Assembly (NCBI RefSeq): GCF_900182665.1
Contig: NZ_FXTL01000004.1
Coordinates: 1-64,000, forward strand
DNA: 64,000 nt
DNA from: Propioniciclava tarda
GTDB lineage: Bacteria; Actinomycetota; Actinomycetes; Propionibacteriales; Propionibacteriaceae
Reading direction: 5' to 3'
The notes under the pieces were generated by a model. It was not told the origin of the DNA. It ran no database searches and saw only the letters and a program-made list of their open reading frames with translations. The translations under genes and the position numbers were made by a program. Below are positions 47,505-54,135 of this stretch, piece after piece. Each line of letters opens with the position of its first letter. Position 1 is the first letter of the stretch.

Positions 47505-47630
47505 GACCCCTCAGGCCTCCACGACCTCGCACAGCGGGAGCGTCCGCGGCCGTCCACCTTGCGTGGCGGTTCGACGTAGCGCGGCGGCTCGGTGGGGACG
47601 GGGTAGCGCTCCAAGGTCATGCTCGCCGGG

Positions 47631-49442
47631 TCAGGAGGTCCAGTCCTTGCGGAACTTCTTCTTCGGCTTGCCACCGTCGTGACGATCGAACTTCTTCTCG
47701 AACTTCTTGCCCGAACGTCCGTCGTCGAGGGTCAGCTCGATGAGCTTGCCCGAGATCCGGGTCGACTTGAGCGCCGCCCACACCTCGGGGGCCAGCTGCG
47801 TGGGCAGCTCGACCAGCGAGTGGTCGGCGCGAATGTCGATGTGGCCGAAGTCCTCGCGCTTGAGCCCGCCCTCGTTCGCCAGCGCTCCCACGATGTGGCG
47901 CGGCGTGATCTTGTGCCGCTTGCCGACGGCGATCCGGTACGCCGTGAGCGGTCCGCCCTCGCCGCGCGGCCCGCGGTCCGCGCGTGCCGGACGCGCCGGC
48001 CGGTCGGCGGCGAAGTCGCCACGGCGTCCGGACGACTCGTCGAAGCGGGCGGGCTTGGACGCCTCCGGCTCGAGCAGCATCGGCTCGTCGCCCTGCAGGA
48101 CGGCGGCGAGCGCGGCGGCGACGTCCACCTCGGGGACGTCGAACTCGTTGACGTAGTGGGCCACGACGTCGCGGAAGAAGTCGATGTTGTCGCCAGCCAG
48201 AGCGGCCGTGATCGCCTCGTCGAAGCGGTTCAGCCGAGTGGCGTTGATGTCGTCGACGCTCGGCAGTGGCATGTGGGTCAGCGTCTGGCCGGTCGCGCGC
48301 TCGATCGAGCGGAGCAGGTGGCGCTCGCGGGGCGTGACGAACGAGATGGCCTCGCCCGAGCGGCCGGCGCGTCCGGTGCGGCCCGAGCGGTGCACGTAGC
48401 TCTCGGTGTCGGTCGGGATGTCGTAGTTGACGACGTGGCTGATCCGGTCGACGTCGAGGCCTCGGGCGGCCACGTCGGTCGCGACGAGGATGTCGAGCTT
48501 GCCGGCCTTGAGCTGGCTGATCGTCCGCTCGCGCTGCGCCTGGTTGAGGTCGCCGTTGATCGCGGTCGCGGAGAACCCGCGGGCGCGCAGCTTCTCGGCC
48601 AGCGTCTCGGTCTCGTTCTTGGTCCGGACGAACACGATCATGCCCTCGAAGTTCTCGACCTCGAGGATGCGGGTGAGGGCGTCCACCTTCTGCGGGTAGC
48701 TGACCATCAGGTAGCGGTGGGTGATGTTGGGGGCCGTGGCGGTCTGGCCCTTGACGTTGATCTCGGTGGGATCGGTCAGGTACTGCGCGGCCAGCTTGCG
48801 GATCTGCGGCGGCATCGTCGCCGAGAACAGCGCGGCGTGCTTGTCGGCCGGGGTGTCGGAGAGGATCGTCTCGACGTCGTCGGCGAAGCCCATGTTGAGC
48901 ATCTCGTCTGCTTCGTCGAGCACGAGGAAACGGAGCTCGGATAGGTCGAGGGTGCCGCGCTCGAGGTGGTCCATGATGCGTCCGGGGGTGCCGACGACCA
49001 CGTGGACACCGCGGGCGAGCGCCGACAGCTGGACGCCGTAGCCCTGGCCGCCGTACACAGGCAGCACATGGATGCCGTGCAGGTGCGACGAGTACTTCTC
49101 GAGCGCCTCACAGACCTGCAGCGCCAGCTCGCGGGTCGGCTCGAGGATCAGCGCCTGCGGCTTCTTCGCCTTCGGGTTCAGCCGGGCCAGGATCGGCAGG
49201 GCGAACGCGGCCGTCTTGCCGGTGCCGGTCTGGGCGAGGCCCACGACGTCGCGTCCGGCCAGCAGCGCGGGAATCGTCGCCGCCTGGATCGGCGTCGGCG
49301 ACTCGTAGCCCGCCTCCTTGATCGCCTTCAGCAGCTTCTCGTCGAGGCCGAGGTCGGCGAACGTCGGTCCGGAGTCGATGGTCTCGGACGCCTCCGCGCT
49401 CTCGGTTTCGTCGCTGGGCTGGGCGTCGATGTCTGTGTTCAC
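47631..49442 (-). CDS. DEAD-box ATP-dependent RNA helicase (DeaD/CsdA type)
   Basis: A 603-residue helicase: Q motif with SPTPIQAATIPALLAG, Walker A AQTGTGKTAA, VLDEADEML, SAT, and HRSGRTGRAGR. A DbpA-type RNA-binding domain follows (IAVGKRHKITPRHIVGAL), then a basic Lys/Phe-rich tail (KKFEKKF, GGKPKKKF). It unwinds RNA during ribosome assembly or cold shock. GTG 49442 is the start. It is opposite in direction to the yidC-rsmG cluster and is the first gene of the inserted block. Confidence 0.93.
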   Translation of the reverse strand: MNTDIDAQPSDETESAEASETIDSGPTFADLGLDEKLLKAIKEAGYESPTPIQAATIPALLAGRDVVGLAQTGTGKTAAFALPILARLNPKAKKPQALILEPTRELALQVCEALEKYSSHLHGIHVLPVYGGQGYGVQLSALARGVHVVVGTPGRIMDHLERGTLDLSELRFLVLDEADEMLNMGFADDVETILSDTPADKHAALFSATMPPQIRKLAAQYLTDPTEINVKGQTATAPNITHRYLMVSYPQKVDALTRILEVENFEGMIVFVRTKNETETLAEKLRARGFSATAINGDLNQAQRERTISQLKAGKLDILVATDVAARGLDVDRISHVVNYDIPTDTESYVHRSGRTGRAGRSGEAISFVTPRERHLLRSIERATGQTLTHMPLPSVDDINATRLNRFDEAITAALAGDNIDFFRDVVAHYVNEFDVPEVDVAAALAAVLQGDEPMLLEPEASKPARFDESSGRRGDFAADRPARPARADRGPRGEGGPLTAYRIAVGKRHKITPRHIVGALANEGGLKREDFGHIDIRADHSLVELPTQLAPEVWAALKSTRISGKLIELTLDDGRSGKKFEKKFDRHDGGKPKKKFRKDWTS

Positions 49443-49484
49443 CCCTAGACGGTACTGACTCCGGCGCCGTTTGGCTCTTCCGGG

Positions 49485-49745
49485 TTAGTCGGACGCCGAG
49501 GGGGGATCGTCCAGCTCGGTGCGGATCGCGGTCACGATGCCGGGGACGTCGATGGCGACGGTCCGCAGGATGATGGCTGGGTCCATGAGGAGATAGCCGT
49601 GAGCGATCCGATTCCTCATGCCCCACATCAACCGCCAGTTTCCACCGAATAGGCGCTCGCGGGTCGGCTCATCCAGGCGGTGCAGCACTTCGAGTGCTGC
49701 AGAGAGCCGCATGCACAGGGCGTCCAGGACGAGCTGCGAGTTCAT
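49485..49745 (-). CDS. HepT-like HEPN toxin (DUF86), start unclear
   Basis: At least 86 residues including MWGMRNRIAHGYLLMD, the HEPN R-x4-H-x-Y RNase signature of HepT toxins. Open frame and family-like sequence (ELLTDALAHLDLL) continue upstream to about 49817, but there is no ATG, GTG or TTG in frame before the mntA stop, so either translation starts at ATG 49745 with a shortened N terminus or a start codon has been lost. HepT is neutralised by its partner MntA, encoded just upstream. Confidence 0.75.
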   Translation of the reverse strand: MNSQLVLDALCMRLSAALEVLHRLDEPTRERLFGGNWRLMWGMRNRIAHGYLLMDPAIILRTVAIDVPGIVTAIRTELDDPPSASD

Positions 49746-49822
49746 TTCACCGGCCGTTGCGTGGCCGCTCAGAAGATCGAGGTGGGCGAGCGCATCGGTG
49801 AGGAGTTCACGGTCAGTGCGAT

Positions 49823-52595: not shown

Positions 52596-53707
52596 GGTCG
52601 GTCGGGCAGCAGGCCGGCGAGGGAGAGCACGGGGGCGAAGACCATGATGTCGGGAGGCAGCGTTGCGTCCGCGGGGCGGATCCGGAGCAGCCCCCGGATC
52701 GCCGGCACGGCCGGGTCGACCGCGTTCTCGGACGCCGCCGCGCAGCACGCGTCGATGGCCGCTGCCCAGTGGGCGGGGTCGCCGGCGGCCCGCGCGACGA
52801 CACCCTGCAGCGTGACGTAGACCCGATCGGGACGCTGGTCCGCGAACCAGCCCGCGCGCGGGTCGGCGAGGACGGCGTCCGTGTCCGGCAGGTCCAGGGC
52901 CGAGGCCCACGCGAGGTACTCGTTCGCGGCGGCGTCCCCGATGCAGCCGGCGACGAGCAAGCGGCTGACGGCCTCGGGGGCGTCGATGGCGGCGGCGAGG
53001 GCGAGCAGGCGGGCGGCGTAATCCCACGTGCGCGGGTTCGGGAAGGCCTTGCCGCGATCGAGGGCCGTGCTCGGGATCGACGTGAGGAGCGCCGAGCGAG
53101 CCCGGAGGAAGCCCGACACTAGAACGCGCTGGCGTCCGAGGTGTTCGGCGTAGTCAGTGGGGAGTTCGTAGACCGGCATCGCTGGCCAGACGCCGGTCAC
53201 CAGCGATTCGGCGAAGACCTCGAGCGGCAGTTCCCAGTCGAGGTGAACAAAGCGGGACGCGGTCGGTGCGGCCAGCTCCCAGCCGGCCGCGGCGACGTCC
53301 GCGGGGTTCGCGGCGGCCAGGAACGAGACCGTACGCGGCAGCTGGAGCGAGCCCACCTGGTAGTGGGTGAGCGGGCGCAGCGCCGCGGCCTGGAGTGCCG
53401 GAGACGCGGTCGAGAACTCGTCGAAGAACGCGATCGCCGGGCCGTCGTGGTCGCGCAGCCGGACGGCCCAGGCGGGCGGCGCGAGCTCGACCTTGCCGTC
53501 GATCAGCATGGGCAGCCCCACGAAGTCCGAAGGCTCGTAGTGGCTGATGATCAGAGTCTCGACGTGCCAGCCGGACGCCCGGGCGGACTCAACGACCGCC
53601 GTCTTCCCCTGGCCAGGGTCGCCCCACAGCAGCGCCGGGATGCGGCACGACAGGCAGATCCCCATGGCCTGCAGCACGTTCTCGTACTCTGCGCGACCGC
53701 GGATCAT
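52592..53707 (-). CDS. MoxR-like AAA+ ATPase
   Basis: A 371-residue ATPase with Walker A WGDPGQGKTAVVES (28-41), Walker B AIAFFDEFSTA and the MoxR-like AANPADVAAAG sensor region. ATG 53707 with AGGGGAGG upstream is chosen, because the much longer frame lies over a region with rsmG remnants. It overlaps and co-transcribes with the VWA gene. The pair resembles NTP-dependent chaperone modules used in metallochaperone and conflict systems. Confidence 0.88.
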   Translation of the reverse strand: MIRGRAEYENVLQAMGICLSCRIPALLWGDPGQGKTAVVESARASGWHVETLIISHYEPSDFVGLPMLIDGKVELAPPAWAVRLRDHDGPAIAFFDEFSTASPALQAAALRPLTHYQVGSLQLPRTVSFLAAANPADVAAAGWELAAPTASRFVHLDWELPLEVFAESLVTGVWPAMPVYELPTDYAEHLGRQRVLVSGFLRARSALLTSIPSTALDRGKAFPNPRTWDYAARLLALAAAIDAPEAVSRLLVAGCIGDAAANEYLAWASALDLPDTDAVLADPRAGWFADQRPDRVYVTLQGVVARAAGDPAHWAAAIDACCAAASENAVDPAVPAIRGLLRIRPADATLPPDIMVFAPVLSLAGLLPDRP

Positions 53708-53927
53708 GGCGCCTCCCCTAGCCCGCCGAGGTCTGGTCGGCGGATCGCGCTTCAGCATAGGTCCGGACGCCTTGGGCGTCAGTCCGTGCTGGGGGTCAGG
53801 TGTGCAGGCGCCGGGTGCGTGGGGCCGGGTGTATGCGTCGCGGGCGGGTTCCGCCTGCTTGGGTGCGATGACGCGCGGCTGCTTGCTGGACCCCGGTGCG
53901 GGCGGGTCTGAATGACAGGCGTGTAGT

Positions 53928-53959
53928 TCATCCACAGGATCACCCACAGGTGTGGATTT
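53928..53959. promoter_or_regulatory. Second cluster of DnaA-box-like sites
   Basis: Three near-consensus boxes in 32 bases: TCATCCACA (53928), TCACCCACA (53940) and TGTGGATTT on the other strand (53951), spaced 11-12 bases apart; a fourth, CTGTCCACA, lies at 54285-54293. They sit between the MoxR gene and parA, about 11 kb from oriC. Confidence 0.5.
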
Positions 53960-54065
53960 CGTCGGAAGCGAGAAAGCGACAAAGAGAGAAAAGGAGAAAG
54001 AGCTATAGCGAGTTTGGGCTTGCGTATCGGAGTGCGGGGTTGAGCCTTGCCGGGTTGATCACCAA

Positions 54066-54135
54066 TCGTGACCGGGCCGTGGCGCCGCTTGATCGGCCGC
54101 TCGGCTGAACGGCCCACCTCTTCTAGCCCGGCGGA
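54066..54135 (+). pseudogene. Fossil fragment of a second rsmG
   Basis: Reading from 54073 gives [11 protein letters not shown]-stop-TAHLF-stop-PGG, against [21 protein letters not shown] in the intact rsmG (47292 onward). Stops replace Trp (TGA) and Gln (TAG). I count 52 of 63 bases identical, with most differences at third codon positions, so the fragment diverged under selection before decaying. It sits where rsmG normally lies, directly before parA. Confidence 0.8.

Follow-up and report, generated by a model that had tools for sequence, protein, structure and literature searches.

The sequence analysed here, a stretch of 64,000 nucleotides from Propioniciclava tarda that we call the window, belongs to a genome of 2.97 Mb in 40 contigs. 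It contains, in this order, dnaA (on the minus strand), rnpA, yidC, jag, rsmG, six minus-strand genes, parA and parB; the names of the first four were assigned from sequence and position. Our subject is a relic of a second rsmG on the plus strand at 54073..54134, just before parA, which the six genes separate from the intact rsmG (46845..47504, plus strand). Twelve congeners were searched, and the labels Gnnn and Lnnn denote genomes and loci of relatives.

A stop-bearing scrap of rsmG before parA

The intact rsmG encodes a GidB protein of 219 amino acids (Pfam PF02527, E=8e-50). When the P. tarda genome was searched at the protein level in six frames (E<=10), the only rsmG matches were this gene and 54070-54144, a HMMER match of 75 bp with an E-value of 2.1e-4 and three stops (two TGA and one TAG). 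Within it, 54073-54134 can be aligned to codons 151-171 of the intact gene (47295-47356) with no gaps and with 52 of 62 bases identical. The BLASTN E-value of this alignment is 1.4e-13 within the window, and its score of 74 compares with a maximum of 33 among 500 dinucleotide shuffles. The 62-bp core holds an in-frame TGA and an in-frame TAG; the third stop lies at the end of the HMMER match. Homologous to rsmG in the same frame at a significant level, and disabled by stops and truncation, the piece is a pseudogene of rsmG. An earlier note on this DNA had described a diverged, stop-bearing rsmG piece before parA, with the working gene about 6.9 kb away. Both statements are borne out, the measured offset between the piece and its counterpart being 6,778 bases.

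What remains is a scrap of 62-75 bp with sharp edges and not a recognisable whole pseudogene. Past the 62 bp homology is not significant: on the right 37 of 200 shuffles, and on the left 60 of 200, did as well as the anchored extension, and none of the lenient, gapped and local alignments of the flanks rose above shuffles. Between the end of the relic and a parA start at 54371 there are 236 bases, which would fit the missing 48 codons, a stop codon and about 90 further bases. This room is a consistency check only, since the intergenic region between parA and the nearest of the six genes (moxR) is without homology in congeners. In G003, whose contig ends 369 bases ahead of parA, no homology to it was found up to that end. 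Of nine comparisons with the gaps of congeners eight were empty, and the ninth, with G006, gave two isolated matches (22 and 13 bp).

Divergence and kinship of the two copies

The differences between the relic and the intact gene are unevenly spread over codon positions: 8/20 third positions differ, against 2/42 first or second positions (Fisher p=0.001). Six of the ten differences are silent; the other four are one change from L to P, one from W to TGA, and the two that turn a Q codon (CAA) into TAG. C/G swaps, which we take to be typical of GC-rich coding sequence, make up half of the third-position changes (4/8). We compared this pattern with a model of a copy dead from birth, in which change is even in the relic and the parent adds only extra silent change. 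The likelihood-ratio p is 0.016 if the silent rate of the parent equals the full neutral rate and 0.002 if it is a quarter of the neutral rate. In simulation, with silent change of 0.15 and neutral change of 0.12, at least eight of ten differences fell at third positions in 4.3% of cases. Because this model fits poorly (p~0.016), it is probable that both rsmG genes were coding during most of the time since they separated, and that the death of the relic came later. This supports the earlier reading of the mostly third-position differences as divergence under selection. Divergence under coding constraint in both copies is one mark of xenologous allele replacement, and it is seen here, on ten differences only.

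Kinship was compared over the same 62 columns in 94 relatives, 91 of which have no gaps there. The best of the 94 agrees with the intact rsmG at 46/62 positions and with the relic at 45/62, so the two copies, at 52/62, are mutual nearest kin. Such mutual kinship suggests that the copies separated only once this lineage had diverged from the sampled congeners, as they apparently did; any allele donor would then probably be a closer, unsampled lineage. The silent sites of the two copies are at background level. At third positions the intact rsmG agrees with L088 at 16/20, with L086 and L124 at 13/20, with G002 and G008 at 12/20, and with G003 and G010 at 9/20. Third positions therefore carry little signal; it is the first and second positions, 40/42 of them alike, that support the kinship. 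A D residue in the relic was considered as a further mark of kinship with the intact copy and was dropped, as 20 of the 94 relatives have it too.

Trees were built with 12 rows from the genus and 11 others. The sister of the window is G003 both in the tree of yidC and jag (support 100/99) and in that of parA and parB (94/92). In the rsmG tree the window groups with G008 and G010 (84/74), inside a four-species group that includes G003 (88/85), and none of the branches holding the window is starred. Nothing in these trees suggests an origin of rsmG or the cluster beyond the genus; a donor may lie within the unsampled terminal branch. The suggestion that rsmG, or its whole cluster, had been replaced by a related copy can be kept in part. 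Replacement of the rsmG allele is plausible, and only from a relative within or beside the genus; replacement of the whole cluster is unsupported, as the genes on both sides share one sister. The earlier note had also said that its idea would fall if the intact rsmG were vertical and the fragment a recent partial duplication. The intact gene does appear vertical at the level of the genus, but the fragment is unlike a recent copy that was dead on arrival.

The rsmG-parA joint and the genes that fill it

In many relatives parA follows closely on rsmG. Taking distances between the ends of protein matches, we found more than 1 kb between the two genes in seven of the nine congeners that have both in one stretch. 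G003 and G004 are outside these nine, the gap in G004 being about 13.6 kb, and G007 is uninformative on the joint (rsmG was not matched there, and the match to parA starts at the first base of a contig). Among 47 other Propionibacteriaceae-like loci, 41 have the pair, and in 18 of these the distance is above 1 kb; among other actinobacteria it is so in 0/36 loci. The division into family-like and other loci was made manually, on the basis of record titles and locus numbers. Over the congeners the gap ranges from less than 0.3 kb to about 14 kb. In the same congeners the adjoining joints are tight, with at most 94 bases between jag and rsmG (11/11) and at most 61 between parA and parB (9/9). 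Elsewhere these two joints can be looser: jag and rsmG are more than 1 kb apart in 2/46 family-like loci, and parA and parB in 8/35 loci of other actinobacteria. The rsmG-parA joint is insertion-prone in Propionibacteriaceae. What fills it mostly differs among congeners, as read with a crude gene caller that misses or misplaces genes (for instance the vwa gene in the window); one protein family is common to G001, G009 and G012, and two matches are common to G002 and G004.

In the window the gap holds six genes, none of which was seen in the rsmG-parA gap of nine fully read congeners. The gap of G004, read except for its last 0.6 kb, is likewise without any of them. The gene order of the window is thus unusual among the congeners read, and the claim of an old rearrangement between rsmG and parA is right in outline.

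The first of the six (47631..49442) encodes a DeaD-type DEAD-box RNA helicase (Pfam DEAD, Helicase_C, DeaD_dimer and DbpA). It has one strong match (E<=1e-120) in each of 11 of the 12 congeners, the exception being G010, a genome 73% complete, and is therefore a chromosomal gene. In nine congeners it lies outside the rsmG-parA gap; its placement is not settled in G003, where rsmG and parA are on different contigs, and in G007, where rsmG was not found. Three further genes form a moxR-VWA module (50379-53707). They encode an uncharacterised protein of 261 amino acids (50379..51164), which has no Pfam match at E<=0.001, a DUF2201 metallopeptidase-like/VWA protein (51336..52601; PF13203 and PF09967), whose exact start is not settled, and a MoxR-like AAA ATPase (52592..53707; PF07728). 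A moxR match at 75-80% identity is present in 5/12 congeners, and a match to the uncharacterised protein also in 5/12. In G001, G002 and G003 the module runs uncharacterised gene, moxR, VWA; in the window it runs moxR, VWA, uncharacterised gene, the last being at the opposite end. In G007 the uncharacterised gene is followed by moxR, and in G012 moxR and VWA are together with the uncharacterised gene on another contig. This permutation hints at tandem duplication with loss, or at reinsertion of a circle. Among candidate remnants of the uncharacterised gene between moxR and the relic the best E-value was 0.009, and none was accepted as real.

The remaining two genes encode an 86-residue HepT-like (HEPN) protein (49485..49745; PF01934, E=4e-9) and an MNT-type nucleotidyltransferase (49823..50290; PF01909, E=1e-11), the latter with a weak helix-turn-helix match below the curated cut-off. 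The pair (49485-50290) is of the toxin-antitoxin type; in other genomes it was looked for within the fetched loci. In PADLOC the MNT protein matches the candidate PDC-S09 and the HepT-like protein matches nothing. Abutting rsmG there is also a minus-strand frame of 38 residues with a start codon (47505-47619). It is possibly a truncated gene start that marks the left joint, and it has no convincing relative outside its own genome among the matches listed. A Pfam scan of the six genes, smaller frames being outside it, found no integrase or recombinase. In character the stretch resembles a mosaic of native genes more than a mobile island.

To the right, parA (54323..55279, plus strand; PF13614) has an open frame for which the congener frames favour a GTG start at 54368 or 54371. 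The gene parB (55296..56225, plus strand), open from an ATG at 55296, is named from its position and from tblastn matches to the parB of congeners. Inside parA there are two sites with a GTTTCACGTGAAAC core (54460-54475 and 54805-54820), which we take to be parS-like; the first encodes a VSRET motif that congener parA frames have as well. Two words that resemble DnaA boxes, each with one mismatch to the consensus, lie between moxR and parA (53928-53936 and 54285-54293) and may be chance; similar words are found at 43992-44012, adjoining dnaA. Left of the origin there is a probable defence island (708-14270), in which genes for an HmaB-like methylase (9736-11616) and an HmaC-like ATPase (6296-9736) stand side by side, adjoined by MzaB- and MzaC-like proteins; a DNA cytosine methyltransferase is at 13083-14270.

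How the relic may have arisen

Several suggestions can be made regarding the origin of the relic. The one we put forward, tentatively and at somewhat less than even odds, is that it is the remnant of a former rsmG at the ancestral rsmG-parA joint, into which another allele was joined together with the genes that now follow it. A replaced or displaced allele is favoured because it explains most simply both where the scrap lies and how its codons differ. The two rsmG copies would apparently have parted once the lineage had branched off from the sampled congeners, and would have accumulated mostly silent changes as long as both were coding. A segment that carried today's rsmG allele, followed on the right by native genes (the helicase, HepT/MNT and moxR-VWA genes), would then have joined in; the allele donor, the homologous join on one side and the arrival of these genes in the same event are what we infer. 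On the left the join would most likely have been by homologous recombination in the yidC-jag-rsmG stretch. On the right it would have been an illegitimate break inside the old rsmG, leaving before parA a truncated scrap that then decayed.

In homology-facilitated illegitimate recombination (PMC3240628), one end of the incoming DNA is joined by homology and the other by an illegitimate join. Such a process could, in our view, leave a truncated host gene beside incoming DNA. The present case differs in that it is deduced from a single scar, with a homologous side that cannot be placed and no donor among the genomes sampled. In the parts of the literature that were accessible we found neither an rsmG relic before parA nor a description of the rsmG-parA joint, which does not show that either is absent from print.

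A number of observations weigh against replacement of the allele. Of 94 distinct relative loci, 89 were searched for a relic (five with fewer than 60 bases after rsmG being left out, and the search reaching up to 12 kb where parA fell outside the stretch), and none has one comparable to that of the window. Nor is there a comparable relic in the 369 bases before parA of the sister G003. Significant homology is missing towards parA, just where the 3' end of a displaced rsmG should run on. The codon test is thin, with 62 bp and ten differences, and the pattern would be ordinary if the silent sites of the parent could evolve faster than the neutral rate of the relic: with silent change of 0.25 and neutral change of 0.09, at least eight of ten differences fall at third positions in 21% of simulated cases. 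The relic and the intact gene agree at 12/20 third positions, which is not above several relatives. Forcing the rsmG tree to join the window with G003 costs 2.28 log units (p-AU 0.219), meaning that rsmG is not clearly apart from its neighbours. Finally, no donor or pre-event genome was recognised among the 12 congeners searched.

The weak hits of these searches can be listed briefly. L087 gave 11 amino acids (E=0.003), L090 gave 29 amino acids on the other strand (E=0.003), and L126 gave 67 bp at 73%, also on the other strand (E=7e-6). In the longer gap of G004 all matches were short and weak (E 0.002 to 0.007), with a maximum length of 64 bp at 72% to a different part of rsmG. When 54040-54330 was compared with 198 genomes of the family, its own included, 24 (again with its own) had a match at E<=0.01. 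Fifteen matched loci were checked: L133-L137 and L141 match inside rsmG, and L139, L140, L142-L146, L148 and L151 are without any query gene. The best match, 36 bp at 94% in G219, is within the rsmG of that genome.

If rsmG had been duplicated in full within the lineage, with its neighbours, and if both copies had worked until the one on the parA side decayed and genes moved in between, then the coding divergence and the mutual kinship would be explained and no donor would be needed. The permuted moxR-VWA module would also fit a history of tandem duplication and loss. But among 56 relatives searched, 55 of which have rsmG, none has a true second copy; the extra rsmG matches in relatives are weak (E 6.5e-6 to 9.6e-4, 28-36% identity). 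Two working copies of a housekeeping methyltransferase would moreover have had to persist until their silent sites reached background. We regard this history as unlikely, and rank it second.

Next after it, and a little more doubtful, comes a short partial duplication, in which 62-75 bp of rsmG were copied 6.8 kb away during repair or template switching and have been neutral since. That only codons 151-171 are recognisable, with homology ending at both edges, speaks for such an event, and so does the mutual kinship of the relic and the intact copy. It predicts many more first and second position changes than the two seen in 42 (against 8/20 at third positions; p<=0.016), and it leaves the landing on the same strand just before parA as a coincidence.

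Genomic islands may be flanked by direct repeats of the target gene. Here too a fragment of a conserved gene flanks a multi-gene stretch, and the 62-bp repeat could be taken for the duplicated attachment site of an integrative element inserted in rsmG, with imperfect direct repeats on both sides of 6.8 kb. Unlike such islands, the stretch shows neither an integrase nor a recombinase in the scan of its six genes, some of its content is chromosomal in congeners (the helicase in 11/12), and the repeats are only 84% alike. We consider this very improbable. Chance resemblance or mis-assembly, which the shortness of the piece might bring to mind, hardly merits belief, given E~1e-13 with none of 500 shuffles near, and given that a mis-assembly would yield identical rather than 84% similar sequence.

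A wider suggestion is that in Propionibacteriaceae the rsmG-parA joint, lying next to the origin, acts as a hot spot, at which recombination repeatedly captures or relocates chromosomal segments and replaces rsmG by the allele of a near relative; the relic would then be a rare surviving scar of something erased elsewhere. We offer this as speculation, and think it unlikely.

Ordinary relics of bacterial pseudogenes occur at synteny breakpoints and are truncated, stop-bearing and intergenic. The rsmG relic is all of these, so far in one genome, and it differs from them in its mainly silent divergence, so that the copies probably separated before the relic died. It is real but ordinary genome wear, and perhaps a record of how one rsmG allele gave way to another that is related to it. 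Whatever its exact history, it is a small pseudogene scar that marks a rearrangement beside the origin and the partition genes. Its importance is mild; it drew attention to a variable rsmG-parA joint flanked, in the congeners measured, by two tight joints of less than 100 bases.

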